A stretch of DNA of 64,000 nucleotides, taken from positions 40,924,191 to 40,988,190 of the forward strand of contig NC_088302.1 of the NCBI RefSeq assembly GCF_032854445.1. Reading direction: 5' to 3'. Below the pieces are notes generated by a model. That model did no database searches. It worked only from the letters and a program-made list of their open reading frames with translations, and was not told where the DNA came from. Source of the DNA: Liolophura sinensis. Lineage: Eukaryota > Mollusca > Polyplacophora > Chitonida > Chitonidae. Position 1 is the first letter of the stretch. Each line of letters starts with the position of its first letter. Position numbers and translations under genes: made by a program. Positions 37,013 through 58,414 of the stretch are shown piece by piece.

Positions 37013-40000
37013 CTACTGACCTCCAGACAGATAGCAAGCCTTATAGCCACAGGCTAGGAGAATGTCTTTCTTAAACTGTTCCTGTTGTGTGTCTACATTG
37101 GCGTTCCCAACCTGTCCATCCTCATACCTGAAATACAGAGAAAACAATAACATCAGATATCATAGATATTCCACAAAATATTCAGTGCAATGTACAACCA
37201 TAAGCACGTGATTCTTGGCTTCCATTGGTCAATACATGGTCACATGATATTCAGCAAAATATGATATACAAAGATCTTGCGCTCAAGCAATGCAGTGTAA
37301 TATCCATGACGCAATAACTCTTTTTTGGTAAAATAAAACATATCCTGCATGCTGTGGGATGGGATATCAGTAATTGTCAGCTGGAGAAAAGTGATATTCA
37401 ACCCAATCTTCGCACTCTTCGAACATCACTTTTATCCACCTAACACCTAACAATTCTGGCTATCCCACAACTGCATGCACTACATATATCTGTATATCAA
37501 CTGCAGCACATCATCCTAAAATTTCAACTTTTCTACATCTACTGTGCTAAAATGAACAACAAAGACTAGAAAATAAATCATTATTTCTATTCTACTATTA
37601 AACTTGTACTGATTTACAGGCAGGAAAAGTGTGCAAAAACAGCACAAATTAAACAACCTTCTTCCCCTTTGCAGCTACAATCACTTGTCCACTATCAACA
37701 GCTGTACAAGCCTATGGAAAGACCAACATTCCACTCAAAGCGCATGAAGGATGTTGGCAGAACACTTGTTTCTCAAATTTCTTATTGATTTTAGTATAAC
37801 TTTATCTGTATGGCACAAGTTATCTTGTTTATTTCTTGCATGATGTTATTGCCATCTACACTAAAGGAAGTGATTGACAAGTGGTATGAACACCTGTGAG
37901 AACCCCTTACTGTGAAATGGTGCAGTACATCAACTCCTCTTGCATGTAGCATGTTCAATGTGGAATGTTTTAGGAAAGTTCAAAGTATAATTGCATTTTT
38001 GCTTCACTTACAGAAAGAAGAATCTGGTACAGACATGATTACTGTTGGGACAGACCCACACATCACCGCTCTTCCTCAACTCTTTGGTGATCACTGAGCA
38101 AAAAGGAAAAAAGACAGCATAAAAAGCTATTTATACTGTAACATATACCATCAAGTACATGAGACAAATCCTTGCACTGCTTAAAAGTCTTAAACGAGAG
38201 GCCAATACTCGTTCACGTTCAGTTTTAAGTCCCACTCTGTTGTATTATACGGCTTCACCTTCAAAGCCTTTGTTTTCTTTAACACGTTTATGTGTCACAT
38301 AATAATACCATCACATATTAAAAGCCATACATACTGTATACTATTTCACCCTAAGTTTAGCAGTTTTCAAGTGACACGTCTTGCTTGACTAATTCATCCA
38401 CCTAATTTGGTTACACATGACTTTCTTAAACAATTTTTTTTATGAGAAAAGGTGCTGGCCTGAGAATAAAATTTTAAGGCATCAAAGTGCTTCAAAAAGT
38501 GCATTTTTACATGCCAAAGTTTAGGTGAAATACAGTAGGTCAACATTAGAAATCTGCGACTTACCCAGTATCTACATATATGTTATATTTTACAATGAAG
38601 CCACAACATGAAACCTAAGATACATGTATGACTTTATACCAGGTAAGCAACATTAACCGTTAAACAAAGTCACACTGTATACTTCACCTTTTTGAGAGGA
38701 CATTACCTTCACATAGCGCTATACAGTTGATATTCTTGCCTTTGAGGAATCGACTTTGAACAGCAGGCTGCAAACACATACAAACAAAGGTACAAACATG
38801 ACACATTGGTTAAAGAACTCTGACAAGATAATTCCAAAATATAATGATTAAACTTACGGCATTTCTTCAACCTTTTCGCATGTTTGCAAGTTCTTTGATC
38901 AAGCATATTCTGAAGGCATTTTTATTCTGTGTTGACTGATAAAATTATACTTTTTGTGAAGCTTTGAAATTGGCCGATCCAACCAATGTAGTTTTGTTCC
39001 CATAATCCAACTAAAAATGTGCATAAATTGCGCTAAAAGGAGCTCTTTCATATGCGAAAAATATGATGAATTATGGTATACATACTGAGGTACTATAGAC
39101 TGAACTGCATTTAAGAAGACGTGTCAAGTCACAAAAGCTGTAACGTATGTTAAGTCAATGACAGGGTGTCAAAAATTTTACCCATGAACCAACAGTCTGT
39201 CAGAACTACACAAATACAGAAATATATTCACTTCTAGAAATTCTTATCACAACTTACAATCAACATTCACAAAAAAAACTATGTCGATATTATCTGGAAT
39301 ATACAGATATGTTATATAAGATGTCTCTGTGGTATATAAACGTAACTATATTACTGTTAGACAGGTGTAAGATTAATTATTTCCTTTATTATACTTACCT
39401 GGGCATCCTCTGCCTCCTTCTTCTTGGTATCCTTAGGTAGAGCTTTGTGACCCATGTACATTCCTGAGTACCCAAAAGACACGCAGGCTGTGGGACTGAG
39501 GTAAATCCCCTTCCCAAAGGCCGCACCGTTCATCTGGCCACAACAAATGAGGAAACATGGTTTGAGAGACTTCAGAAAGAAATTGTGATGTCAGGTATGA
39601 GATGAAAAACCCTTGTCAAGTGTTAAGAATGGGGTATGTATACTTAACAAAGACAGCATCATGGCAGACAGATAGGCAGACAAAAATAGTAAGGTAGAGG
39701 ATTCCTGGGTAATGCAACCATATACAAAAACTCCAATGAGTCATTCATGTCTGAGTGAAGATACTGTGTAACAACCATATTCTAAATGAACAGACAGACA
39801 AATGACAAGACGGCTGAAGGTAAAAAAAATCCAGAGTAAGGGGCAATCAACAAGTATAATCCTTCAGCCTTTTCACCAGTTTGCAAGGGGTTTATTCAAG
39901 CATATTCTGAAGGCATTATTCTGTGCAGACTGATAAAATTGGCCAATCCAACCAATGTAGTTTTGTCTCCAAAATTTAATCATAAGTGTGCTCAAATTGC

Positions 40001-43000
40001 TATGAAAGATAAAGATTGAGGAACTTGGGTAAAGTTATTGTGGGCAACCAGGGCAAACGGAAAGCTGGACAAACAAGCAGTAACAAAAAAGCCGTTGACT
40101 CTGTTTCTTTACATCATGCTGTTCCATGTTTTATACGATGATGTCTGTGACACCGTATCCCTTTAAGCTCAACGGCTTCTTGTCTTTGACTCACCACATA
40201 CCTGGAATTTGGTTCCTGATGCATTCATCAAACCATTTCTAAGAATTGAGTGCCAGTTTTCAATGTGTGATCCACTGGAACAGAAAGTTAAACAAAAAAA
40301 AAACAGCTCAAATAAATGACACTTATGACCCGAGGCCTCTTACACTAAGACTAGTCATATATTATTATTTGTGACAACAAGTCGTGCACCTCTGAATACA
40401 GTCTGAAAGGACAAGCTACACTTGATGAAAGGGCGATTTGATTGATTGATTTCTCAACTTGAATGCAGTTTTATGGTGAATCTTACACAGTGTGCATGTA
40501 TTAGACTGGGAGAGCGTTTTGTTTATATTTCCGTAATGCTGAAAGACACGTTCGGTGCAATTTGGATGCTGTACAGTGTGGAGATTGAAAGTTATCTTAA
40601 TAACTACATGCAGAGACATCAAAGCTGTATAACTATTTATATGTTTGTTTTATTCTAAGAGAATTATGATTTTTGTTTTTTATAAAGAAAGAATGCTTCA
40701 GTATAGAAATCGTTGTGAGGCATACAAAATGGAGTAAACATGGTTGCAGGATCTGAAACCACATAACCGTATCTGTTACTTGATTTATTATTTCATGGCC
40801 AATCCAGACATAACTGATATCCTAACTTGTAACCTCAATGGTCAGAGACTAGTTGTATAAACTGAAACAATCTGGGGCCATTTTCACTGAGCTTTCTCGC
40901 AGTTTTATACAGCACCTCTAGGCAACATTGCAAAAAAATGATTTACAGTTTTGTTAAGTGGACCTGGGATGGCTCAGTTAGTAATACAAGCTTCTAAAGA
41001 TATCTTATCAATTCTGTTCACTTACTGGAATGCAAAAGTACTTCCAAACTTCAGTTTCTCCGCCCTGAACACAGCTTCCTTGGCGGGTGGGCTACTCAGC
41101 AGCAGGAACTGATGGGGGGTATTCATAAAACTCAATTGCTGAAATTTGAGGCGACAAAAATATTACACGAATACATACATGTAAATGTACAAAAGCCTCT
41201 ATAGCTTTCAGAAAGTCTACTTTACAATAGTGAGAGGCATTAATTATTTTAATGTAAGTATTTAATGCTACTTAAGCCTCATAAGGTCTGTTAAATAGCC
41301 ATTCAGCTATTAAAATGTACTTCACATCTCTCTAACTCATCATGTCATGATAGTGAGAGTTTACTTAATAGCTATTTAAGTGTGCTTCATGAAACTTGTC
41401 CCTGGCCTTTTGTTCACCTTATTTTTGTTTCCTGCCAGTAAGAACTTACATGTATCTATGGAACATGAGAACATTTTTTTCCCATTTTATTTTCTATATA
41501 AATGCAAAGGGCAAGCTAATTTAAGCTAACAAAAATCATTCAATTATTATTTAAACTAACAGATTTTTCAATTAATCACAAAAACATTTATATTTCTCTT
41601 CCAAGAAGCTTCGAGCATCTTCTCCCTCAATGCAGTGCATGTGTTTATTATGGTAACACCACCCTAAAAGTGCCGACTGCATTGGGCAGATATGGGCATT
41701 CCCCAATGCTACCTGTCTCAAACGATTCAAGTCTAGATTGAAAATAACATATGTTACCACGTTAAGCTTCAGGTTTATTCAACCTCACACCAACAAGAGA
41801 CTCAAACCTATCTAGATACCTACCCTCTCTAGGGGTATCTTGACAATATGAGATCTGTTACTGGTTATAATCCTAAAACAAAAACATATGTACCTGATGT
41901 TTTATGATACAAAAAACATAACATTTAATACTATGAAGTCTATGTTCTTCTTCATTATATGCTGGGGGCCTCCGTCACTCAGTTGGTTAGCACGCTAGGG
42001 CAGCGTAATGATCCAGGAGCCTCTCACCAATGCAGTGGCTGTGAGTTCAAGTCCAGCTCATGCTGGCTTCCTCTCCTGCTGTACGCGAGAAGGTCTGACA
42101 TCAACCAACGGATGGTTGTGGGTTTCCCTGGGCTGTAGACGGTTTCCTCCCACCATACTGCTGGCCGCTATTGTGTAAGTGACTTTTTAACTTAAAAAAT
42201 GGCAACCAGTTTCATGGGTGAAGAAAACTCAAGTGACAAGAAGAAAACCAGAGGCTTTGGGCAAGCTACAGGGGGAACTTTCCCATGTGTAACACTGATG
42301 ATTAGTTGACTTGTAGCTCACTTCATCTAAGAACACACCACAAAGAAGCGTTAACTGCTTACTGCCACCAAAGCCTCAATAACAATGGACGCAGGGGAAT
42401 CTTGAAATCTCCCTGTCACAGTAGGAAAGAAGCCATATATGGTGTGACCTAGCAACTAAAAAGTAAGAAAATTAATATTACACCTCTGACCTATTCCGTA
42501 TATAGGCTCATTCAATTGATAGCTTTTTAATGTCATTCTAAAGAATTTTCAACTTACACAACTACAGTCAGGTTTACAGTTTTAAGAAAACCAGGCATCT
42601 GTCACACCTTGATGTTTCATAATTAATTTCAATTTCTCATGACATCTTCACACCTAAAATTTGAGATGAGCTAATTATAATACATGTGGGATAAGCCATT
42701 AAAATATGATTTCCTCCATATGCACTTTTTCAGTAAATGAATAATCACTAATTAGTAATTACTGCTCCCAGAGTGTCTATAATGATAATAATAACAGAGT
42801 CCTAAGCGGCAGCTGACCCAGCAAGAGCTGAATCCATCTCCGCGAGCAGCACTAATACTGGAATGAGCAAGGAAAAGTGCCCAATGTGTATTGCTTCACT
42901 ACAAATATACAACAGATTCTCACAAGCATACCACTCAAAATGAAGTCCATTAAATTTCAGCAGAAAATACATGTAGCCTATATACTACACTAAAAGAAAA

Positions 43001-46000
43001 ACATACCACTGTAACAATGGGTAACAGAGGCTGTCACGGGCATCCATCTCTCTCTTAAGCTCAGTGGCTCGGAACTGGGTCATCTTATGCATGGATAGGA
43101 AGTTTTCAAGAGATTGGGAAACTCTCACAAAATCCTTTTTCTGAAATCAGAACATGCTTTGAAGATAGGCCTCTCGTTTGACATACATGTACACGAATAT
43201 AGAAACCGATCCTAAATCATAAATAATTTTGCAATGCCCATAAATATTGTGATATTTGTCTTACATCTTTCAATACCGGTTTTATCAAAAGAAATTTAGG
43301 TATGACATCTTCTTACCTACAATTCCCTACAATCTTACCCTGTTGCAGCTTTTCTAAAGCAGCCTAGCCTTAGCCACCAGCTTGGATTTGTTTGCTTTCC
43401 TGAGAAATATATATATATATTTATAGCGCCAATATTTTTATGGTGCTGCCTCACTAGGGCATAATGCTGAAGACAACTGAGATAAAGTTTCACCAACTTT
43501 AAGTATTCTCACACTGGGCAAACCATTAAATGGCCTGATCACTCATGCCAGATATGCTGAGTGTCAATCAAGAAAATACCAACATTAACAATTCTGAAGT
43601 CTTTGACAGTACTGTAAGGTGGACGTTTGGCTCCACAATGAAGGTACCTTTGGATGGAGGGCCAATTCATTCGGGTTTTTGGGGTCCACCACAGTAGGGT
43701 AGGGGTCAAAGATGAGGTCTTTCCTGGGGGATCTACATGCAGCAGTTGCCATGGCTATCAGTAAGTCCACCACCTGTTTGGGTAAAGGAATAATTACAGT
43801 ACCAGTTTCTCTCAAAAAAGGAATGAGACTGTAAAGCATCAACCAGGTTACATTGTAGAATTTCTCTCCTATACTTGAATGATGTTGTAGGCTTGAGTGG
43901 TTGACGGATGGGGGGGGGGGGGGTGTTATCTACATAACCCTTTGTTGAAGTTCTCAGGCTTGACCCCGTGCTGCTCTGGGATTTTCAACACTCAGAAACA
44001 ACCCAAATGAAGGATGAATCGATGCTTGCTGAATCAGTGCAGCGGAGACCAAAGTTGTAACAAGTCTGAGCATACACACATTTCTGAGCGTATCACATTT
44101 ATTGTATTACCACTATCAATATCATGACCATTGTCTTCAAACTTCATCCATTATCTGATCACCAGCAATAGAAACTTTACTTCCAATCCATTCTCAGCTA
44201 TACACATACATATATGATCAATACAACACTGAGCAGTTCAATTAACAAAGTGTATTCCTATGGTCTCAATACAACCTCCTTGACTAATATCACTTTACCT
44301 GTTTATTCTAACGCACAAGGCCTTGGACACTATGTCTCAAATTATTTATATTTCACTAACCCATGGTCATCGGCTGGTCAGTATTTTCTCTGTGATCAGT
44401 ACATAACCCCTCTCTTAACTGACCTATGCCCTGTTTCCTCCCACTATAATGCTGGCTGCCGTCATATAAGTGAAGTATTCTTGAGTAAATCAAATTTCCA
44501 ATTTGATTTTCCAATCAAATAAATAAATAAATAAACCTTAACTGACAGTTAATATGATACTTTTGACCAGAAGTCACTTTAGATAAACGCTCTTTTAAGA
44601 CATACAACGAAACTACATGGTATAATACATGTACTCTTCATGAATTTCACAATGTGAGGTCGGTAACAGGTCTGTGACAAGCCAGCCACCAACTGCTGAG
44701 GTCAATAACAGGTCTGTGACAAGCCAGCCACCAACTGCTGAGGTCAATAACAGGTCTGTGACAAGCCAGCCACCAACTGCTGTGGTCGGTAACAAGTGTG
44801 TGACAAGCCAGCCACCAACTGCTGAGGTCAATAACCGGTCTGTGACAAGCCAGCCACCAACTGCTGAGGTCGGTGACAGGTCTGTGACAAGCCAGCCACC
44901 AAATGCTGAGGTCGGTGACAGGTCTGTGACAAGCCAGACACCAACTGCTGAGGTCGGTGACAGGTCTGTGACAAGCCAGCCACCAACTGCTGAGGTTGGT
45001 GACAAGCCAGCCACCAAATGCTGAGGTCAATAACAGGTGTGTGACAAGCCAGCCACCAACTGCTGAGGTCAATAACATGTGTGTGACAAGCCAGCCACCA
45101 ACTGCTGAGGTCAATAACATGTGTGTGACAAGCCAGCCACCAACTGCTGAGGTCAGTAACAGGTGTGTGACAAGCCAGCCACCAACTGCTGAGGTCAATA
45201 ACAGACCACAGGTTTGTGACAAGCCAGCCACCAACTGCTGAGGTCGGTGACAAGTCAGCCACCAAATGCTGAGGTCAATAACAGGTGTGTGACAAGCCAG
45301 CCACCAACTGCTGAGGTCAATAACATGTGTGTGACAAGCCAGCCACCAACTGCTGAGGTCAGTAACAGGTCTGTGACAAGCCAGCCACCAAGTGCTGAGG
45401 TCAGTAACAGGTCTGTGACAAGCCAGCTACCAACTGCTGAGGTCGGTGACAGGTCTGTGACAAGCCAGCCACCAACTGCTGAGGTCGGTAACAGGTCAAA
45501 ATACTTAAAGGATACAACACATAGAGCTATGAAACAAAGATTATCTTTCTATGCCAAATGAAGAAAATTATGCCCCAGAATTTTTGCCCCAAAAATTTCA
45601 TTTTGGGAGTATTTTTATACCTTTAATTACCTTTCTATAGTTTGCATATATTCTGCCAATGGTCAAATTTTTTCAGGAATTACCCCATCTTGCTCGGAAC
45701 TCGGTGAACACCCTGATGTGCCCCCAGCCCAGTGAACCGTGTCGTTACAGTGTGGGCAAGGTGACATGTACACAGATACTCCATGGCTTCTTCGGACCAG
45801 CTTAATGCCCTCTCCGTGCCACCTACACCTGCCCCATTCGGTCTGTTCCCCACATCCCCGCCCCAATCAAGTGAGTCAGTGCTTGGGGTTTAACGTCGTA
45901 CTCAACAATTTTTCAGTCATATGACGCGAAGGAATCCTTAGGTTGTATGTAATGTGCCTCCTTGTCGCAGGGCGGATTTCCATCGCTCTTTTATCTAGTG

Positions 46001-49000
46001 CTGCTTCACTGAGACAACTTACCGAAGGCAATTAAGCTGCCCAGCCCGAGCCATTATACTGATACGGGTCAACCAGTCATTGCACTATCCCCTTCATGCT
46101 GAATGCCTAGTGAGGAAGTTACAACTTCCTCTTTTAAAGTCTTAGGTGTGACTCGACCCAGGATTGATCCTGGATCTACCGCTCCCAAAGCGGACGTTCT
46201 ACCAACTGTGCTATCTGGGCTGGTCCGCCCCAATTGACCACACTTGTTTGGGTCTGTCCCCTACAGAGTATTTTTTAACCATTGATCATTATTGATGTCA
46301 CCACTGTAAGCTACTTAATTACTTTTTTTACCCTGCAAAGTGAAAATTGAAAAATTTGTTTGTACTGTTATATGATACTACACAAGCTAATCTGCACATT
46401 AAGAAATAAAAGCGAGGTGTTTCATGTATCCTTTAAGACTGGCTTCAAACACCCCTGGAAGGTTTCATGTATCCTTTAAGACTGGCTTCAAACACCCCTG
46501 GAAGGTTTCATGTATCCTTTAAGACTGGCTTCAAACACTCCTGAAAGGTTTCATGTATCCTTTAAGACTGGCTTCAAACACTCCTGGAAGGTTTCATGTA
46601 TCCTTTAAGACTGGCTTCAAACACCCCTGGAAGGTTTCATGTATCCTTTAAGACTGGCTTCAAACACTCCTGGAAGGTTTCATGTATCCTTTAAGACTGG
46701 CTTCATACACTCCTGGAAGCCTTGCTCAGGCTCTGGTATTTCCTGTGAACTTTAATTCTCCTGTGACCATGCATGTTCGAAAACATTTGAACAGATATCA
46801 TAGTATAAAAATTTACCACACTATCTCTAAAAAAGATTCCCCCTGGCTCTGTCCTGATTCTTCTCATCATAAAGCTGGCTATCATCATATAAATGAAATA
46901 TTCTTAAGTACAGTGTAAAACATCAATCAAATAAATAAACAAACAAAAAAATCTAAAACCCAGATCACATCAACAGTGAAGTGGCCTTTGTACCATAACA
47001 ATCCATCTCAAATTTACTCACTTGAGGTGAAAACAAAAACAGTTCAAAAAAATCCAATGAAGACAAAATTCTGTAGGCATCATTCCTATCATTTATCCAA
47101 GTGTGAGCGATGTAACTAACTGTACAAACCTCAGGGCCAGCAGCAATGTCCTCAGCTGCGTCTGCCATGACTCCCAGAGTCTGATATGCAAACACACATA
47201 GTTCCCGTGAACAGACGGCTGGCTGCAAGGAATCAGGGAACAAGGGCTTAATACATGACTTATAATATTACTTAAAAATAAGGGATACTCTACATAAATC
47301 AGCCTTAGCTTGTTAATATTCAATATGTTTAATTAGATATATTTAGCAGTTTATCAACAGCCTTCTGAGACACCTGATGTAAGAATCGATGTATACACAC
47401 GTTGTAGTCATGACAGTTTATAAACAGTGTTCTGAGACACCTGATGTAAGAACTGCTGTATAGACACGTTGTGGTCATGATGGTTTATCAACAGCCTTCT
47501 GAGACACCTGATGTAAGAACTGCTGTATAGACATGTTGTAGTCATTACAGTTTATCAACAGCCTTCTGAGACACCTGATGTAAGAACTGCTGTATAGACA
47601 CGTTGTAGTCATTACAGTTAATCAACAGCCTTATGAGACACCTGATGTAAGAACTGCTGTATAGACACGTTGTAGTCATTACAGTTTATCAACAGCCTTA
47701 TGAGACACCTGATGTAAGAATTGCTGTATAGACATGTTGTAGTCAAATGTGTAAAAACTGACTGGCAACATTTAAGTCAAATTCTGAAATGGCCCCCAGG
47801 CCAACTGTATGCATGTAATGCAAAATGCCTGCAGGGAACTTGTATGTTTTGCCAATAGTCATGACCCACTATGAACAGCCGACTGCTTTGCTTATACATA
47901 CACATTTATGCAATCATATATTTCAGAAATATCAACATGAACTGGAATATCCCTTACTTCCTTATTTTACTATAAACAAGTTATACGTGCAGTTGGTTTT
48001 CATCCAATTCAGTCCAAGAAACTACTCATCTGTCACCTTCGCTCAAAAGTCATGTAATAGACATCTAATAGCATTTAACATGGTTGGGGGAGAAATCTGC
48101 ACATAACTACTTATAATCTGATGTTTCTGCCTAACCAAACACAAAAAAAATGAACTCCAGTAACAACAGAAGTCTCCTGATAAGATGTCCATCAATGCCA
48201 AAGATAATTAAACCAGAATTGGTGTATAGCTAATCCAGCAGCAACAAAGACTAATAAGTCCAAGTTTTCACTAGTGAGCTGTACAACATTTAAGTTTTAC
48301 TTATTTCTCTGATATGAAACCTCACCTACCTTCAACATGGCATCATTCTTGAAGACATGTGGTTCATCACAGACCACACAGTATTCATTTAATGTGGGAA
48401 TTCTCTGACGAGCATACTGATAAACCTGAAGTCCAGAAGAAAAGGATGGACTAGAGCTGTTGTCTTACAGTGATGATATGAATACACAGGTTAAGTCTTG
48501 ACGTGACAGGAAATACGGTGTTTGACCAGTAAAAATGCACTTTCAGAAGAACATAAAGGTTTTAAAATGACACTTTTGAAGCTATTACTTAAGTTTTTCT
48601 GAAAAGCAACTGATCAAACTTCATCAAAGAAATCACAAAAAAAAACTTAAGATGGATGAATTAACTTAGCAAACGTGTCACTTACAACAACTAATCTTTA
48701 TGTAAAATATATTACTTGAGAACGACTTAATGCCTGTACTCAAGATAGATTCACTTACACAACATTGGTAAGTTTTAAGGGTGGAGGAAACCGAAGTGGC
48801 TGACGTAAACCTTCAGGCTTATTCATCAGAAACTGATGAAAGTTTCTCACACGACAGGATTTTCACCGGAGCAAGCTCAAAGTGTATACCATAACGGAGG
48901 AAGGCAAGTAATCTTTAGTCAAACTTCATGTAAGACCAACTAAACAGCTGTCAACACTTCGGTTTACTACCATGAAGTCCCCAAAAGCACTGGAGTTGAA

Positions 49001-52000
49001 GGAAACTTTGTGGATCCCTTTCGGAAATCTTAAGTGATAAACAAAATGGAATAACAATTTTGCTCTAGCTTTTACTTTCTGGCAGTACACCATGGAAATC
49101 ATCACAACTGTGGACTGACATGACGTGTTTGTAATACCACATTTTCATAGCATGCAACAGTTTTTCTCTTACTTTTTATCTGCAACAGGCCACTCGTAAA
49201 GTGGCTCTGTCAGATTTTTTAAAATCCTGTGTTTTAACACGCCATTGACTTGACAAGTCTCTGAGTGCAAGCGTACATTGAATTTTTCTGGAATGTCAGA
49301 GCTACTTTTAATTTGCACTTCCTTATTTTTTGATTCCTTGCTAATTTTGAGAATACATGCAAATGGAACACTTAAGACACACCTGCACAAGGAAACCGTG
49401 TTCTAATGATGGAAGACTTTTGGTTTCCTTCCTGCTAAAGGCATCAGTGGAGAGAGAGTTGGTGGAAAAGGAGGCTTGGAGGTCTGGGGCCGTGTTAGAG
49501 TTCACCATACTCGACTGGCGCTTTGTAAACTTGGGCTTCAGCTTCATAAACTTCTTCACTGATGGATTAGACATCTGTTGACGAGGGGGGAGAGGAGGAG
49601 GTTTGTTAACCGGAACAGCAGGAGCATTCTGCGCAACCCTGTTGACTGATTTGTCTTTCACATTCTTGGATGTATTTGCAATATTTACATTTTCACACCT
49701 ACAAATATATCAAGTCAAAAGACACATGTGGCAGATGTAATACAAAGATGTATGTTCCAAGTCTACATTAATCTTATAAAGACATCTGAACAGATCAAAC
49801 TGTTTTGGAATTGTCAATCATGAATCAATATGGCTGTCAGTGTCCTACTTTGCCGCACTGTCAACAAAAGATTCAGTGACTGTTCACCAACGGAAAAACG
49901 CAAGTGCACAAAGTATTGTCTTTAAATCAAATTTCGGGTTGAGAAAAAATGAATATGTTACATCTTACATCTAACCTGGTCCACTAAAAAATAACCGCCC
50001 TCACTTGCACCTACATGTGGCTAACAATTTCATTTGAAGTAATAAATTCAAGTACACAGGAATGCGCTTTGATTCAGGAAGTAAAATAAAAATTAAAACC
50101 CTTAAGTACATGCACACAGCCATGAAAGTAATAAAATAGCAACCTGACTGATTTTGACGTTTTGTTAGTCTTGATGCTAATGCACCAATTTAACAATGAA
50201 GTTTGTCTTCCATGTGTTGATGTATATGTATAGCTGTATGTTAAGTGAATACTATGTACAGCTGACTCTTGAGTAAAGCAATGCAATTGAGTAAATCATA
50301 AACAATACTTGAGTAAACCGCAAAATAATACTTGAACAAAGTGTAAAAAAAAAATACTAGAGTAAAGCATAAAATAATACTCTTGAGTACAGAATAAAAC
50401 AAATACTCATAACTGAGGCATAAAACAAATACTCATGAATGAGGCATAAAACAATGCAATAGAGTAAAGCTTATAGCAATACTCCAGTAAGGCATAAGCA
50501 ATACTGGACTAAAGCATAAAGCTCAAATAAAGAATAAAACAACAAACTTGAGTACCGTAAAAACCAATATTATTGAGCACGTGATAAAACGATATTCTTT
50601 GAGTACGGCACAACAGTGAAAAACTACACTTTATTAACTGTGATGAGACTCAACATCTCGCCCACTCCTCATCCCAGGACATACCTGTCTGGGTTACTCA
50701 GCAGCAGGTCTGTGGCCTCGCTCACTTCTCCACGAGTGATAATCAGAGCATTTCTGGATGCCTCCATAGAGAACCCCATGTCAACTAGGTGGGCCAGGGA
50801 TGCATCGTCAATGGTGGAGTAATCTATGCAACTGGAAGAACAATAATAAGTACACTAGGGTATGCCAGGTTTGTCAGCTTAGTTCCAAGCTTACCAAGGT
50901 TAGATCTACTAGTTAGCCATTAATAGGTTTCGTATTAAATTATAAAGCTCACACATTGTTCTAACTACAGTCTTGCTGTACCTCAAATGAGGGAAGCCGC
51001 TGTAACTGGAGAAAAAGAATGCCATTACAACTGCCATGTAAACATCTATAATATGTATGATTTTTTTTTTATTTATTTGATTTGTGTTTTACATTGTACT
51101 CAAGAATATTTAACTTGTATGACGGCGGGCATCATTATGGTGGGAGAAAACCTAGCAGAGCCCAGGGGAAACCAACGACCATCGGCAGGTTGCTGACATG
51201 CCCTCTCACGTAAATATAAATGAAGTGTGAACAATACATAAATACATGTATCGGGAAGACGCACCTAAAAAAGAAAATTTATTTTTTACTTCCACTGAAA
51301 CTTACTGTCTTATCTGACACTTAACTAACACACAAAGATGACCCCTGCTCACTGTGACATATTTAGCTGACACTAAAGCTTATCTCGAGTCTGGGTTCAC
51401 AATGCTCTCTGTGTCATGTGTAGCTGACACGACAGCTTACCATGAAGCTGGGTTGACCCTTGCTCTCGCTCTGACATGTTTACCTGACACTGCAGCTTAC
51501 CCTGAAGCTGGGTTTACCCATGCTTTCAGTGACATGTTTGGCTGCCACTACAGCTTACCTTGAGCCTGGGTCTACCTCTACTCTCTGACATTTTATGCTG
51601 AAACTACACCTTACCCTGAGGCTTGGTTTACCTGTGTTCTCAGTGACATGTTTGGCTGCCACTACAGCTTACTATAGGCCTGAGGCTGGGTTTACCCTGC
51701 TCTCTGACATGTTTAGCTGACACTACAGCTTACCCTGAGTGGGTTTACCCCTGCTATCTGACATATTTAGCCAACACCACACCTTACCCTGTGGCTGGGT
51801 TTACCCGTGCTCGCACTGACATGTTTGGCTGCCACTACAGTTTACCCTAGGCCTGTGACAGGTTTAGCTGACACTTCAGCTTCTCCTGAGTCAGAGTTTT
51901 CCCCTGCTCTCTGTGACATGTTTAGCTGACAATACAGCTTACCCTTAGGCTGCGTTTACTCCTGCTCTCTGAGACATATGTCTACTTTACACTACAGCTT

Positions 52001-55000
52001 ACCCTGAGGCTGGGTTGGCCCCTGCAATCTCGGACATTGTGAAGCTGTGTTTTGGTCTGCCAAGCACGTGCACAGATGAGCTCAATGACTTCACTTTCTC
52101 ATTAGTCAGAGATTTCCAGTGCTGGTTTATAAATGTCTCCATGATCCTGTAAAGTAAAAAACAAACAAACACAAAAAATTACTGATAAAGCCAATAGTTA
52201 TATGCAATACAGATCTGAGACCCTTTTACAAACAGTATGCGAAGCTATTTAGATACTTGTATAACCTGAAACTTGAGGACTCCTATGCTTTACAGAGTAC
52301 CCTAATTCCTCAACCTTTTTGCATATGAACTTTCAGTGAAATTTATGCATATTTTATTTATTTATTTGATTTTGGAGACAAAGCTACACTGGTTGGGTGC
52401 TTAATTTCCGGGCTTCAAAAGAAAGTATAATTTGATCAGTGGAAACAGAATAATGCCTTCCGAATCTGCTTGAATATACATATATATAATATATATATAT
52501 ATATATATACCTTTCAAACATACGAAAAGGCTGAAGAATTATAGTAATAGCAGAGTACAAAGAAGCCTTTCACCAATGTGGTCGCTGTGTGTTTGAGGGA
52601 GCCAGCAGCCAGCAAATGGTTGTGGGTGTCGCCCAGACTGCCCACCACTTTTCTCTTTACAGAATGCTTGCTCCTGTTGTATAAGTGAAATATTCTTGAG
52701 TACGGCTTAAAACACACATCAAATAAATACATGTAATAGATAATACATACATGTAACCTAAAACACTGAATGTGCAAGGAACATTATATTTAATTTATGA
52801 AACAACCAAAATTGTTTGGTAAGAGAGTCAGACTTTGGCTGATGTCTATGGTGTTTACTCACGCCCTCATCTGACTGGCCACCCCACACTTGGCCTGTCT
52901 CGTTGGTTGGAACACCTCCAGTTTGGGGGCATCTAAAAAATATTTACAGACATACATAGTGTACACTTACTGCAGACAGTAGAAAAACCTCTTCATTGGC
53001 AGCAAGCATTATTAGTTTGGTCCATAGAGCCCACCACAGAATTTAAGCCATGGACTGCAATTAATTAAATAAAAGTATGAGTTTCTGCTCATGCTTAAAA
53101 AAGACTTGCGTGATTCTCAAAGATCCCGTTCTTCTCGATCTGATGTTAGCTCGCCAGAAAATGTGTAAGTTTAGGTTTAATTAGAGGTCAGAGTTAACAT
53201 GCCTGAAAAATGAGTTCTGACTTACTTGTTGAGTCCAGATACATGGTGACTGACATGTGAAGGCGTATCACTAAAGGTTCATCGGTTGTAACTCCCCAGG
53301 CATTGGCTACCTCACCCTGCAAATAACATACACAAAGTAATGTCATTAAAGTAAAGAAGCTTTACATTTTCTTCAAATTAAATTTTAAAATTATCCCACT
53401 TTCAAAGCAAAGTCAGATAATGCTGCATTTCAATAAAAACATAAAAAGCAAACAGTTAAAAGTGAAGGATTCAATGAATAGTAGTTATCAAAGATGAAAT
53501 GTCCACATACCTGAAGAAATGAAAAAGGGATATGTAATTCCACATCAATATCATCTATGGACCTGAATAACCTGGAAAAGAAAGGAATGACAAATTACAT
53601 TTTCAATCCTGAAGACAGTCATTTTTTAAAGACCTGGTGATGTTTTTGTGTTACTGGACCTTCATTCCCCCACATATTACAGCTATTCCTGTTTGACCCC
53701 AAATGGAGGTTGATAATTACCGATACTGCAATGAGCGATCGCTGTACAGTAGTCGACAGTTTTCAATATCCTCCTCCAATAAAGGGTGCATAGCACAGCT
53801 CGCATCACAGTCATCCTGTAAGTAAATGTAGGTAAAACCAGACATCACTGTCACAAGTACAATTTACTTCCTAAACAATTTCAAACTGATACACACACTG
53901 GTACTTTGAATAAATCTGATTTTCCTCTGCAAACATTCGTAGAGCATTAAGCTCAACAGCAAAGGTTTCAAACATTTCTCATATCTTCTCTTTCTAAGTT
54001 TTAATAAGGATTCTGAAAGTATTGCTTTACAATACATGTTCTCTATTTCATGAATCGTCAGAAAAGTATTTGCTTTCAACAATGCACTTTATTGGGCCAA
54101 AAAAAAAGTCCAAAACTGTCATAGTCAAAAATAGATTAAATGGCCCAAAATCTTTTCCTTATTCGTAACTCATCATAATGACAATAGTTAATCCAGTACC
54201 ATGAACCATCTGAAAAAAAAAAAAAAAAAGAACAGAAAACTGTCTTGTTATGTGCTGACATGTGGAGTTAGGGCCAGTAGGGAACCAATAATGCAGGTAG
54301 CCTTTGGGGTACAGATATTCTTCAATACCCAGCACTGATAATACGGATGTTGTGGCTGGACACGTAGACTTACATCGTAGTCCTGATCATGATAATACTC
54401 TGCACAGTCTTCCTCGGAGCTGAGGTCAGACACACAGTCTGCGTAGCTTGATGCTGCAGAGTCCTGGCTGATCATCCTATGTAAGCAGGCGTTAGAGCTT
54501 CCTGCAGAATTGCCCATCTCACTGGATGTGTACGGTAACGCTGTGTTCTCCCCACCTTCCTCTGAAAAACAAAACACCAACCCCAGTCAACACCAAGGTT
54601 ACAGCGCAGACCTGGGTAAATACAGTACATTACAGATAACAAGTGGCATTCTCTGTTAATGTCAATCAACCCTAAGTTAGTCCCGCGTTCTAAGTATGTT
54701 CATCGCTGCTCATTCCAAACATTTATCATCACTGTTGGAAAATATGCATTAAATAGAGGAGTTATTAAGAAATATAAAATATACTTCAAGAATGAAAAAA
54801 ATAAAAAAAATACAAATTTTATTTAAATATCTTTTTCCATTTTCCTTAAACCATACTCTTTGCTTTATAGTATCTTTCCATGTATCCTTGAATCCCTCCG
54901 AAACATGGAAGCAGGGCGATCTTGACAGCCCAAAGTCAATATACATAGATGATATAGCCTTAGATGTACATGTATTTAGTGGTGGTAAATTCATTTGAGA

Positions 55001-57819
55001 CATCAACAGCACTCAATTTGATTACAGAATGCATCTGAATTACTAGAAGGGCCTATACTCTAATGTAGAGAACAACCCAGAATAGAAACTTGACAGCCTT
55101 CCATTCTGCAAACCAATGTAAGAGCATGCACTGTACATGTAAAATGTAAAATTTTACACCCTCTCACCAATGCCATGGTTGTGAGTTAAGTCCTGCTTAT
55201 GCTGGTTTGCTCTCCAGCCGTACATGCTAAGGCCGGGCCGCAACCTGCAGATGGTCATGGGGTTCCCTATCCTCTGCCCGGTTTCCTGCCATCATAATGC
55301 TGGCTGCCGTTGCATAATTGAAACATTCATGAGAACGGCGTAAAACACCAATCAAATAAATAAATAAAGAAACAAATTCTTACCTAGTGATAGATTAAGC
55401 TGAGCCATGATATTATGAAGTCCAACATTGTACGTCGTGTTCATTGAAGGTTCATCTAGGCAGGATAGGAATGTGTTTTCTGAAAGTCATATCACAAACG
55501 ACAATTCACTGTTTGCACATTGTACGAGTAAGACATAATGCAGAGTCTTACTATAACACAGGGCAGTATATGCCATACATTATGTATTAATCTGATTGTT
55601 GTTTAACATCATCTTCAAGAAGTTTTCCTAGGTGGAAGGAACCAGAGTGCCTGGCGTAATCCACAGACATTTGGCAAGTTACTGGCGTAAATATACAGCC
55701 CCTGACAGGGTTCTCAAACCCTGTCCAAAACCGGGTTTGAACCCGCATCTCATATTAAAGACTAGCAACTGAACAACATGCACCTTTAACCGCTAGTCTC
55801 CACTGTATATAAGCACTAATAATATGCAGATCTGTGTACAAATGCACATACATGTGCATACCTTGTTCAGACACACTGTGTGCACCAGCATGTATTGCAT
55901 AAGTAAGTATATCAATATTTAAATGACCAAATCTGTGCTTACATGTACTTCCTTGTTCACTTCCTTGTCAAATGTCATACAGTCTTTGAATATATTAACC
56001 TCACCATTGTGCTAGCTATCAGCAGCTGAATGACTTGTGTGCCCTGATTTCACTCATGTATAACAAATCTACTTGATATATAATTATTAAAAAAATAATT
56101 CCATGAGGGTCAAAAGAGATATTGCACTCTTTACATCATAAAATTTAAAACTGTAGTGCAGGTTATATGAAAAAAATGGCCTTTAGGCATGAATGATCAT
56201 TCTTGCTTAAAAACAAGTCAACAAATTTACAAACTGCTCACAGGCATAAATAATAATTCCTGTAAAAGAAAAAAAAATTGAAAATGAATGGGGACTCACC
56301 TGGATAATCCTCAGAGGCATAGCAAACATATCTTGTCTGTCTATCTAGTGACTTGTGAGTGAAGGAAAAACACTGATCCCCAACTTCCAATTCTACAGAA
56401 AGATATCAACACCTTCATTAAAAAACCATGCTGAATTATGAAATCACCTGCTAAGCACACTACATACACATGTACATGTAGCAGTAACAAGAAAATTATC
56501 ACAGTGATTATAAAACAACGATGTCTTCATGTAGGAAAAGATATAAAATAATTATATGCATGCATGGGTTTTACACCTTTGTTTCCTGAAAATAATAAAA
56601 TCAAATCTACACACATGTATGATTATATATAAAATTTATGGACATTTATGCTTAATGATTTATTTGAGCAGACTTTCATTATCGTTTTTTTTTTAAGATA
56701 TTCTAAAAACCATGTCCAACCTACATATATTTTGTAAGCAACTCTACATTTCTTTAAATTTTCACATCACCCAACCGCAATGTTCCTATCCTATTCATAC
56801 ATGTCTTATTTAAATATATACTCATCTGAAAAGTGCTTTTTATTGAAGTCCATGCAAAAAATTTCAAAACTTCTGTCTCATGAAGTCAAGCCAGGTGCTT
56901 GAATTAAACTCATGTTCTCACAGAAAATGTCAAACTACAGGTCCTTATGGATTACAGATTTTTGTTGAAAAAGTGATGTTTCGGTGTTTCTAAGGACTCA
57001 TATTTATCTCATTTTATTTTTATTTATTTCATAGCAAATTTTAAACTGTACTCAAGAATATTTCCATAATATAAAGGTGGCCAGGATGACTATGTGGGGG
57101 GAAACTGAGCAGAGCATGGAGGAAATCCACAAATACATGTACTAGGATGAGTTGACAGTTCACCTAAATGGTCTCAAAATTTTCCAAGCTGATAATAATT
57201 GTCCACACCCCAAATCATATGATCTGAAATGTCATTGACTTATGCCATACAATCTGGTCAGTTGATTGATACACAAACTTGACTAGCTCAAATTGAATTT
57301 CCATCTCATTCTTAGAACATATCTCCAAGCCATGAGGACTGGCCCTGATAGCTCAGTGGGTAGAGCGTCTGCTTCGAAGGGTGGTAGATCTAGGGTCAAT
57401 CCTGGGTTTGGTCACACCTAACAACTTAAAAGAGGAAGTTGTAACTTCCTTGCTTGGCCTCGTTTAGCATTAAGGGGATAGTGCAACGACTGGTTGACCC
57501 GTATCAGTATAATGGCTTAGGCGAGACGGCTTACTTGCCTTCGGTAAGTCATCGCGGTGAAGCAGTGCTTGATGGAGCAGCGCTAGATAAAAGAGCGATA
57601 TAAATCCCTCCTGCAACAAGAAGGCACTATGTGCATGACAAATTTCAAAAAAGATAATTTATCAGTAAATATAAGCCATCTTTAGACCGGATTTCGGGCC
57701 ATGGTTGCGACATTGTTTTGACATTTCGATTTGTTACCTTGAAACGGGCTACAGCTCTGTGAGTATTTCTCCAAGGCTTGATTTGCGTCTGAACGAAAAG
57801 TTTCCAGTCTAGACTGCAT
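37013..57819 (-). CDS. PARP6/PARP8-type mono-ADP-ribosyltransferase with UBA domain
   Basis: 22 exons, all GT-AG, give one 819-residue frame: 57819-57738, 56392-56300, 55479-55384, 54561-54374, 53815-53721, 53571-53511, 53316-53226, 52932-52863, 52146-52003, 50831-50685, 49698-49383, 48425-48330, 47222-47130, 43773-43648, 43140-43007, 41872-41824, 41138-41026, 40274-40202, 39533-39399, 38767-38707, 38093-38012 and 37127-37013 (TAG). Residues 28-260 follow the N-terminal PARP6/8 region (SIDDIDVELHIPFSFL, NAWGVTTDEPLVIRLH, LEVFQPT). Residues ~316-354 form a UBA domain (MGF at 325-327). Residues ~360-450 are a linker with PPPLPPR. Residues 462-566 match the Cys-rich PARP6/8 module (C477, C480, C497, C502). 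The catalytic domain spans ~611-819: ITSNRSHIVK, FHGSHIENWHSILRNGL (His665), GKGIYLSP (Tyr700), CTRFFFLYEDGQVGNAN. Family members transfer single ADP-riboses to proteins. Length is close to human PARP8 (about 850). Confidence 0.95.
38855..39078. mobile_element. MITE-like element, copy 2
   Basis: Lies in intron 19 of the PARP gene. The left end is TACGGCATTTCTTCAACC and the right end is the reverse complement of TACCATAATTCATCATA. The interior contains caagcatattctgaaggcat and gatccaaccaatgtagtttt, shared with the copy at 39855-40030. Confidence 0.7.
39855..40030. mobile_element. MITE-like element, copy 3
   Basis: Lies in intron 18 of the PARP gene, under 1 kb from copy 2 and in the same orientation. 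It shares caagcatattctgaaggcat and atccaaccaatgtagttttg. The left end tataatccttcagccttttc is recognisable and the right end is degraded. Confidence 0.65.
41965..42185 (+). mobile_element. SINE family A, complete head, tail lost
   Basis: The head is well preserved (gtcactcagttggttagcac, then B box gagttcaagtcc). The body continues through ggtttcctcccaccatact and stops at attgtgtaagtgactttt, before the usual tail. It lies in intron 15 of the PARP gene. Confidence 0.85.
42195..42425. mobile_element. Diverged dispersed element containing a single 25-bp unit
   Basis: The right part (tgcttactgccaccaaagcc, then aataacaatggacgcagggg, aatcttgaaat) matches one unit of the 25-bp array at 9765-10292 together with its right flank. 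It seems to be an older dispersed repeat. Limits and class are unknown. Confidence 0.5.
43908..43923 (+). repeat. Poly-G tract
   Basis: A run of G (about 13 in a row within atgggggggggg) in intron 13 of the PARP gene. Confidence 0.9.
44400..44535 (+). mobile_element. SINE family A tail fragment
   Basis: Shows cctatgccctgtttcctccc, ataatgctggctgccgtcat and gaagtattcttgagtaaat, ending ccaatcaaataaataaata. It lies in intron 13 of the PARP gene. Confidence 0.82.
44660..45500. repeat. 42-bp minisatellite, about 20 copies
   Basis: Units gtctgtgacaagccagccac + caactgctgaggtcaataacag. Main variants are gtcggtgacagg for gtcaataacagg and gtgtgtgac for gtctgtgac. A few units are shortened, for example near 45000 and 45205. 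The period is 14 codons without a stop, so long frames appear on both strands; none is credible as a gene. It lies in intron 13 of the PARP gene. Confidence 0.96.
45870..46235 (-). mobile_element. SINE family B, full-length reverse copy
   Basis: The reversed tail (gggtttaacgtcgtactcaa, tttttcagtcatatgacgcg) comes first. The body follows (gcagggcggatttccatcgc, ctgatacgggtcaaccagtc, gaagttacaacttcctcttt). The tRNA-like head, on minus, reads gcccagatagcacagttggt and agaacgtccgctttgg. It lies in intron 13 of the PARP gene. Confidence 0.85.
46420..46722. repeat. 42-bp minisatellite, 7 copies
   Basis: Units ttcatgtatcctttaagact + ggcttcaaacacccctggaagg, with c/t and a/g changes. It has the same period as the array at 44660-45500 but an unrelated sequence. 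It lies in intron 13 of the PARP gene. Confidence 0.96.
46830..46948 (+). mobile_element. SINE family A tail fragment
   Basis: Shows ctggctctgtcctgattctt, ataaagctggctatcatcat, gaaatattcttaagtacagt and ccaatcaaataaataaac-like tail (atcaatcaaataaataaac). It lies in intron 13 of the PARP gene. Confidence 0.78.
47340..47745. repeat. 66-bp minisatellite, about 6 copies
   Basis: Units cagtttatcaacagccttct, gagacacctgatgtaagaac, tgctgtatagacacgttgta, gtcatta. It lies in intron 12 of the PARP gene. Confidence 0.94.
50260..50610. repeat. Degenerate 20-28 bp tandem repeat resembling a SINE tail
   Basis: Variable units of the form cttgagtaaagcataaaaca + atact. The phrase cttgagta...gcataaaaca resembles the conserved family A SINE tail (cttgagtacggcgtaaaaca), so the array may be an amplified SINE tail. 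It lies in intron 10 of the PARP gene. Confidence 0.75.
50685..50831 (-). CDS. Exon 10 of the PARP6/8-like gene: UBA domain
   Basis: One 147-nt exon, in frame with both neighbours, encodes nearly the whole domain: DDASLAHLVDMGFSMEASRN, then ALIITRGEVSEATDLLLSNP. The hydrophobic pattern, MGF loop and C-terminal LL are those of UBA three-helix bundles that bind ubiquitin. From memory, human PARP6 and PARP8 have no such segment at this place. The exon boundaries coincide with the domain boundaries, which fits gain or loss as a module. Confidence 0.88.
51065..51205 (-). mobile_element. SINE family A, reverse fragment
   Basis: Shows tttatttgatttgtgtttta, gtactcaagaatatttaact, cattatggtgggagaaaacc and cagagcccaggggaaacc. 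It lies in intron 9 of the PARP gene, left of the splice-junction array. Confidence 0.82.
51340..52025 (-). repeat. 55-60 bp minisatellite amplified from the exon 9/intron 9 junction
   Basis: About 12 units of tttagctgacactacagctt, accctgaggctgggtttacc, cctgctctctgacatg. The rightmost unit (about 51985-52025) contains the real end of exon 9 (last exon base 52003) and its 5' splice site. Read on the minus strand, most other units keep the same CAG(G)GTAAG-type donor: cttacc or cttact is present in most units. The array lies wholly in intron 9 except for that last unit. Confidence 0.9.
52298..52546. mobile_element. MITE-like element, copy 4
   Basis: The left end TACCCTAATTCCTCAACC and the right end (reverse complement TACTATAATTCTTCAGCC) form good terminal inverted repeats. 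An AT microsatellite lies inside at about 52477-52510. It lies in intron 8 of the PARP gene. The flanks agagtac and cagagtac are similar and may be a target duplication, but the exact boundary is unsure. Confidence 0.75.
52477..52510 (+). repeat. (TA)n microsatellite
   Basis: About 30 bp of alternating T and A inside the MITE-like element. A shorter one is at about 28303-28322. Confidence 0.9.
52550..52735 (+). mobile_element. SINE family A, diverged
   Basis: Shows aatggttgtgggtgtcgcc, gtataagtgaaatattcttg and agtacggcttaaaacacaca, ending catcaaataaatac. The middle is diverged. It lies in intron 8 of the PARP gene. Confidence 0.75.
54213..54230 (+). repeat. Poly-A tract
   Basis: A run of about 17 A in intron 4 of the PARP gene. 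Confidence 0.9.
55165..55378 (+). mobile_element. SINE family A, head-truncated
   Basis: Starts in the B-box region (atggttgtgagttaagtcct) and continues through the body (gcagatggtcatggggttcc, cataatgctggctgccgttg). It ends in the tail gagaacggcgtaaaacacca, atcaaataaataaataaag. It lies in intron 3 of the PARP gene and stops 6 bp before exon 3. Confidence 0.85.
55595..55802 (-). mobile_element. tRNA-derived SINE of another family (D), reverse copy
   Basis: The right end on the minus strand reads like a tRNA head: ggagactagcggttaaaggt, and the B-box region gggttcaaacccggttttgg (reverse of the plus text). The left part is gattgttgtttaacatcatc. Elements near 34920, 42200 and 48700 share parts of the body. 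It lies in intron 2 of the PARP gene. Confidence 0.65.
57010..57135 (-). mobile_element. SINE family A, diverged reverse fragment
   Basis: Shows actgtactcaagaatatttc, ggtggccaggatgactatg and gagcagagcatggaggaaat. It lies in intron 1 of the PARP gene. Confidence 0.65.
57335..57625 (+). mobile_element. SINE family B, plus copy with intact tRNA-like head
   Basis: The head is ctgatagctcagtgggtaga + gcgtctgcttcgaaggg, with B-box-like gggtcaatcc. The body (aaagaggaagttgtaacttc, gactggttgacccgtatcag) matches the reverse copy at 45870-46235. The tail is truncated after aagaaggcac. It lies in intron 1 of the PARP gene. The head is a SINE module rather than a functional tRNA gene, because it runs straight into the SINE body. 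Confidence 0.85.
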
Positions 57820-58414
57820 AGTAAAACACCACTGACTCAAGGGATAAGCACTAAACAACGATTTGTCTCAAGAATGCTCAAACAAGCATCAATATTTGGC
57901 GTCATGTTGTTGTTGTTGACATGCTGCTTTCCCTTGCATGCTTATTGCGCACTTCCGGTCTCGCGGTGAAGTTATTTCGCGAGACAAGGAGTGAAACCAT
58001 TTTTCGAGAAGAACTATCAAGAGAGGTGAACAATCTCTGTGGTTGCCAGGCGGTGTTTCGGCAACAACGTAAAAGCTACCGTTGTTTGCTGGATGTACAA
58101 TGATGAGTAGAAACAAAATGAGACCGACATTTGTAGTAACTGACTGTGGGAATTTCGCTGCCTGCTCGTTTCCCTGACAGATAGCTGTATAACTCGCGAG
58201 ACTGATAATAGTGCTTGCAGGCTTGGGCTGTCACTTGACTCGAAACTCTGCTTGATCAGGAAATAAGGAAGTTTCAGCTTAACTGGAAAATTAACTATTT
58301 GTGGGACAAGTCATATGTTACGCTATTAATACTCCTGCTACAATGATTTACTTCCACCTGAAACTGAAAGCAAAACAGATAGCAATATAAGGCCTTAATT
58401 AGTCACTGATTACT
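57820..58414. promoter_or_regulatory. Probable bidirectional promoter of the PARP6/8-like and BTBD1/2 genes
   Basis: Start codons of two divergent genes lie 595 bp apart. The stretch 57920-58210 is clearly richer in G+C and CpG than its surroundings (tcgcggtgaagttatttcgc, ggcggtgtttcggcaacaac), as expected for a housekeeping CpG promoter. No TATA box was recognised. The right third (about 58250-58414) is probably BTBD leader sequence. Actual transcription starts are unknown. Confidence 0.6.

Follow-up and report, generated by a model that had tools for sequence, protein, structure and literature searches.

Human PARP6 and PARP8 are described as consisting of a C4 zinc finger, a split RWD domain whose long insertion is mostly disordered, a helical extension and an ART domain (PMC10450202). 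In the text of this 2023 re-annotation that was consulted, the zinc finger is "followed by" the split RWD, no residue limits accompany the RWD, and the sequence match of the RWD in human PARP6 reaches only E 180. A 2025 review, in the part consulted, calls the E2-like folds of the two enzymes "enigmatic" and their roles yet to be described (PMC12687431). Ubiquitin-related domains on PARP6/8 homologues were reported in a 2014 survey, which lists a UBA domain for Acanthamoeba castellanii and Trichomonas vaginalis, a UBCc domain for fungi, moss and Chlamydomonas and an RWD for R. filosa, and whose authors suggest an ancestral link of the family to ubiquitin (PMC4245714). A term search of its main text shows that neither Lottia nor any other mollusc is named there. 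An earlier survey from 2010, as far as its consulted text goes, gives a PARP6/8-clade protein of the mollusc Lottia without additional known domains (PMC2964712); this silence on a Lottia UBA is weak, because the UBA of Trichomonas is likewise unnamed there. Outside this clade, human PARP10 has a split KH domain whose insertion contains ubiquitin-interacting motifs (UIMs) (PMC10450202).

The locus described here lies in a 64-kb window of the genome of the chiton Liolophura sinensis, by which we mean the whole stretch of DNA that was analysed. It holds a minus-strand gene that starts with an ATG at 57819 and reaches its stop codon at 37013, with 22 coding exons that are in phase throughout and a product of 819 aa:

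37013..57819, minus strand: gene for an 819-aa ADP-ribosyltransferase of the PARP6/8 type, in 22 coding exons (GT-AG exon chain with one terminal stop; genome matches all at the locus)

Exon borders were set approximately by eye and then refined with a script that required GT-AG borders, matching phase and zero internal stops, and the refined chain bears out the original prediction of 22 exons in phase. The top-scoring path gives 811 aa by way of an alternative exon 3 acceptor (score 213.4), and the 819-aa path, with its single, terminal stop codon, came second (213.3); either acceptor may be the one used. The codon test was noisy: in 14 of 22 exons the true frame had the top score, and in five its score was at or below zero. 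A search of the 609-Mb genome with the 819-aa protein scored 21 candidates and gave 20 matches, every one of them at the PARP locus. The gene thus looks single-copy in the chiton genome, a missed copy being possible in this search. Head-to-head with it, a BTB-BACK protein gene occupies 58403-59635 on the plus strand (BTB 92.9 bits, BACK 40.3 bits); the first ATGs of the two genes are about 600 bases apart, and therefore the genes may have a common promoter region.

The assignment to the PARP6/8 type is carried by the C-terminal half of the gene:

47130..48425, minus strand: exons 12-13, Cys-rich region with CX2CX16CX4C at residues 477-502 (motif match)
37013..43773, minus strand: exons 14-22, ART catalytic domain with a probable helical extension (Pfam PARP, PARP16 match, sub-cut-off ARTD15_N)

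The Pfam PARP family (PF00644) matched residues 660-713 at 39.2 bits against a cut-off of 26.7 (E 6.8e-10), and ARTD15_N matched residues 523-613 at 17.4 bits, below its cut-off of 26.3. Among PDB sequences, the whole protein matched PARP16 best (6hxr, E=3.7e-4), another member of clade 6, with H665 and Y700 aligned to its AFHGS and YL positions. The C4 motif falls within the Cys-rich pattern CX2CX9-19CX4C given for PARP6/8 homologues (PMC4245714). Together, the motif, the PARP domain and the PARP16 match support the original call of a PARP6/8-type enzyme. The identities to human PARP6 and PARP8 sequences in our alignment are leads: the C-terminal 366 aa are 65% identical to PARP6 and 61% to PARP8, exons 12-22 are 38-88% and exons 5-8 25-50% identical to one or other protein, exons 1-3 align to PARP8 alone (26, 35 and 31%), and exons 4, 9, 10 and 11 are weakly conserved (6-27%). 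The C4 motifs in these human sequences start at 286 in PARP6 and 509 in PARP8, which fits the published zinc-finger limits of 284-330 and 503-552 (PMC10450202). On balance, we favour the reading that this locus corresponds in the chiton to vertebrate PARP6 and PARP8 and encodes a predicted mono-ADP-ribosyltransferase, a judgement made jointly on this assignment, the coding UBA exon and the recruitment mechanism set out below. A whole-genome search with the PARP catalytic family returned 18 exon-level matches at E up to 0.001; the catalytic exons of the PARP6/8-type gene were not among them (none lay in the window), though the protein as assembled scores above the cut-off.

The exon that sets the gene apart lies after the N-terminal region and ahead of this conserved part:

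50685..50831, minus strand: exon 10, UBA domain at residues about 314-355, phase 2-2 (Pfam UBA_7 and UBA, PDB neighbours, codon score)

Exon 10 measures 147 nt and has phase 2 at entry and at exit. On the 819-aa protein, Pfam UBA_7 matched residues 315-355 at 32.5 bits (cut-off 27, E 7.9e-8), and the classic UBA model matched residues 314-350 at 22.8 bits, 0.4 bits above its cut-off of 22.4 (E 8.1e-5); searched by itself, extended by one or two residues at its borders, the exon-10 peptide gave 9.7e-10 for UBA_7 and 1.2e-6 for UBA. At a loose limit, five Pfam families were reported for the protein: PARP, UBA_7 and UBA above their own cut-offs, and ARTD15_N and a phage lysis family below theirs. 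In whole-genome searches, whose match lists are lower bounds, exon 10 came third among the 8 UBA_7 matches listed (37.4 bits) and was absent among the 10 places listed for the classic UBA model. A PDB sequence search with the exon-10 peptide returned 13 matches at E up to 10. Six of these had E <0.02, namely TDRD3, USP13, USP14, USP5 (two) and HUWE1; the HUWE1 entry is a piece labelled UBA domain, and we take the other four proteins to be UBA-bearing as well. The in-frame codon score of 0.43 bits/codon is second among the 22 exons (exon 8 is first, 0.52) and compares with 0.04 and -0.02 in the other frames, which contain 5 and 3 stops against none in frame. Because UBA profiles, PDB matches and codon score agree, we consider exon 10 to be a genuine coding exon as judged by sequence and predict its use in the transcript. 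The earlier claim that exon 10 alone encodes a UBA was upheld by the HMM search of the 819-residue translation, which passes the UBA_7 and UBA cut-offs, and the domain layout along the 819 aa places it, as had been proposed, after the N-terminal region and before the Cys-rich and catalytic segments.

Which part of the enzyme houses the UBA depends on how the surrounding exons are assigned:

55384..57819, minus strand: exons 1-3 (57738-57819, 56300-56392, 55384-55479), N-terminal region that appears to resemble that of human PARP8 (alignment)
52003..53815, minus strand: exons 5-9, taken as the larger part of a split RWD and the start of its insertion (alignment to human PARP6/8 and PMC10450202, consulted in part)
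49383..49698, minus strand: exon 11, weakly conserved linker with KPPPLPPRQ (translation)

Exon 11 is 12% identical to PARP6 and 27% to PARP8 in the alignment, and its proline-rich stretch KPPPLPPRQ resembles an SH3-binding motif. Residues 1-99 gave zero Pfam matches, and Pfam did not match an RWD with the insertion kept or removed, nor in the N-terminal pieces alone. Exons 1-3 would cover the region for which a strongly diverged RWD has been predicted (PMC10450202). We place the split RWD ahead of the zinc finger, because the ARTD15_N-like stretch, itself below cut-off, starts at 523, about 20 residues past the C4 motif, and leaves no room for an RWD with a long insertion. If so, the variable stretch of exons 9-11 would be the insertion, and the UBA would probably lie inside it. 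This placement rests on spacing and one sub-threshold match, and it runs against the "followed by" wording for the human proteins (PMC10450202). The UIMs in the split-KH insertion of PARP10 offer a parallel to a UBA in a split-RWD insertion (PMC10450202).

We propose a mechanism in which the UBA would keep the catalytic domain close to ubiquitinated proteins, or to an E2/E3 complex touched by the RWD, with ADP-ribosylation of these targets or of ubiquitin itself as the outcome. UBA domains often bind ubiquitin through an MGF loop and the last helix. Both an MGF loop and a leucine-rich last helix are present in the exon 10 translation, and through them the domain is predicted to bind ubiquitin or a ubiquitin chain. 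That the UBA steers the enzyme to ubiquitinated substrates is a reasonable expectation, and substrate choice and catalysis are predicted with it. Taken as a whole, a PARP6/8 counterpart with a coding exon 10 UBA that acts as a ubiquitin-directed mono-ADP-ribosyltransferase is the explanation we judge best, and we hold it with slightly more belief than doubt.

Two readings concern where the UBA came from, and both are compatible with this explanation. To look for a donor of the exon, we compared the exon-10 UBA with 13 other UBA stretches of the genome, that is, a neighbour in the window at 2411-2533 and 12 other places in the UBA_7 and UBA genome lists, duplicates counted once. The best scored 18.4 bits, against 97.9 for the exon-10 UBA with itself, and all 13 were rejected as donor, being weakly similar. 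The neighbour is a second UBA_7 exon (minus strand, 48.6 bits) that belongs to another gene about 48 kb from exon 10; its likeness to the PARP UBA is weak (12.6 bits), and together with a preceding exon set by eye it matched no Pfam family beyond UBA_7 and UBA (UBA below cut-off). The lack of a close copy among these stretches speaks for a UBA that has belonged to the PARP6/8 family since early times, that molluscs and some protists have retained and that has disappeared or eroded on the way to vertebrates, although the genome lists behind the comparison are lower bounds. The Acanthamoeba and Trichomonas homologues with a UBA, and the ancestral ubiquitin link suggested for the family, point the same way, but the description in the consulted text does not cover the protist domain order (PMC4245714), and the Lottia protein is given without a UBA (PMC2964712, in the part consulted). 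We regard an ancient UBA as a serious possibility that falls somewhat short of an even chance.

If exon shuffling had inserted the UBA exon into a phase-2 intron, in the ancestry of the chiton or of molluscs, this gain would explain that the UBA corresponds to exactly one phase 2-2 exon and that the length of the surrounding linker is far from that of human PARP6/8. No highly similar donor was found among the 13 UBA stretches, including the one at 2411-2533, which speaks against shuffling, with the caveat that an old event would leave none; we view such a gain as possible but doubtful. Beyond both readings, and rather improbable in our estimate, PARP6/8 may have begun as a ubiquitin-reading ADP-ribosyltransferase with a UBA inside a split, E2-like RWD, a form that molluscs would keep while vertebrates would have lost the UBA but kept the RWD. 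On this unlikely combination, the chiton enzyme would show the original job of PARP6 and PARP8, the ADP-ribosylation of ubiquitinated proteins or of ubiquitin. Among viral and prokaryotic contigs, the protein query gave 4 and 7 pattern matches and the alignment query 137 and 28, none of which was confirmed as a homologue.

The mechanism itself could fail at the step of ubiquitin recognition, since some UBA domains do not bind ubiquitin. The domain would then be UBA-like and would pack on the RWD or mediate dimerisation, which would be in line with the narrow margin of 0.4 bits by which the classic UBA model is passed and with the absence of exon 10 among the whole-genome matches listed for that model. 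Against this, the usual contact sites, the MGF loop and the leucine-rich last helix, are in place, and we consider a non-binding domain unlikely, though not negligible.

With regard to splicing, skipping of exon 10 would preserve the reading frame. Equal phase at entry and exit is common to 8 of the 22 exons (2, 3, 9, 10, 12, 13, 14 and 19), and symmetric phase was dropped as a mark of alternative splicing of exon 10. A 58-base minisatellite at 51341-52025 in intron 9 overlaps the 3' end of exon 9, whose donor it thereby repeats, with seven more copies of the exon 9 donor context in the intron between 51441 and 51945. Scored with a simple weight table, intron 9 has four sites that reach >=5, compared with 4.73 for the true donor; introns 10-13 hold 0, 0, 1 and 2 such sites. 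Read-through beyond exon 9 meets an immediate stop at 52001, and therefore use of a decoy donor would cut the protein short ahead of both UBA and ART. That exon 10 is cryptic, rarely used or part of a separate nested gene, as its frame-neutral skipping and the seven extra donor contexts might suggest, is very improbable given its second-ranked codon score, its intact frame and splice sites, and its position on the same strand with matching phase at both borders.

Further minisatellites in the PARP gene have units of 42 bases (44655-45497, intron 13), 43 bases (46419-46719, intron 13) and 67 bases (47347-47745, intron 12). A 36-base minisatellite of about 99 copies at 4377-7934 is open in several frames on both strands, up to 1116 codons, and we regard these long open frames as arising from the repeat. 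Inspection by eye suggests tRNA-like short interspersed elements, in opposite orientation, at 57343-57620 and 46030-46230; ARAGORN called no tRNA genes in the 64-kb window. Eight molluscan haemocyanin beta-sandwich units stand in a row at 37880506-37891931 of the chromosome that carries the window, about 3 Mb away from it (8 of 8 candidates matched).

The original prediction had further held that human PARP6 and PARP8 lack a UBA, which is in accordance with the 2023 re-annotation: a term search of its main text gives no occurrence of UBA (PMC10450202). Its claim of novelty stands in part: the combination of a UBA with a PARP6/8-type enzyme was already known from Acanthamoeba and Trichomonas (PMC4245714, consulted in part), but for an animal we recognised no report in the literature searched, a search whose coverage leaves aside most subscription journals. 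The new features are probably the animal host and the probable place of the UBA inside a split RWD. An animal orthologue with a UBA in the region of the E2-like fold would provide a natural and testable link from the PARP6/8 pair to ubiquitin, and the chiton enzyme offers a construct for a substrate search. Were the UBA ancestral, the scattered protist reports would become a family trait lost in vertebrates.

Compared with known systems, the nearest solved sequences to the exon-10 peptide are the UBA domains of TDRD3, USP13 and USP5, whose host proteins are unrelated to the chiton enzyme. Human PARP10 resembles the proposed chiton layout as a mono-ART with ubiquitin-interacting motifs in the insertion of a split domain (PMC4245714, PMC10450202, each in part); unlike the chiton protein, it carries these motifs in a split KH domain together with an RRM, and as a clade 3 member it is no orthologue. 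Fungal, moss and green-algal homologues share with the chiton a ubiquitin-system domain on a PARP6/8-type ART, but theirs is an E2-type UBCc where the chiton has a UBA (PMC4245714, PMC2964712, each in part), and in the fungal clade 6A proteins the UBCc is C-terminal (PMC2964712). Human PARP6 and PARP8 match the chiton protein in the C4 zinc-finger motif, a probable helical extension and the ART, and its N-terminal region appears to be like that of PARP8. They differ from it in that the consulted text names no UBA for them and describes the split-RWD insertion as mostly disordered (PMC10450202). The Acanthamoeba castellanii and Trichomonas vaginalis homologues have protist rather than animal hosts and are compared by a description that does not cover domain order, and like the chiton enzyme they join a PARP6/8-type ART to a UBA (PMC4245714).
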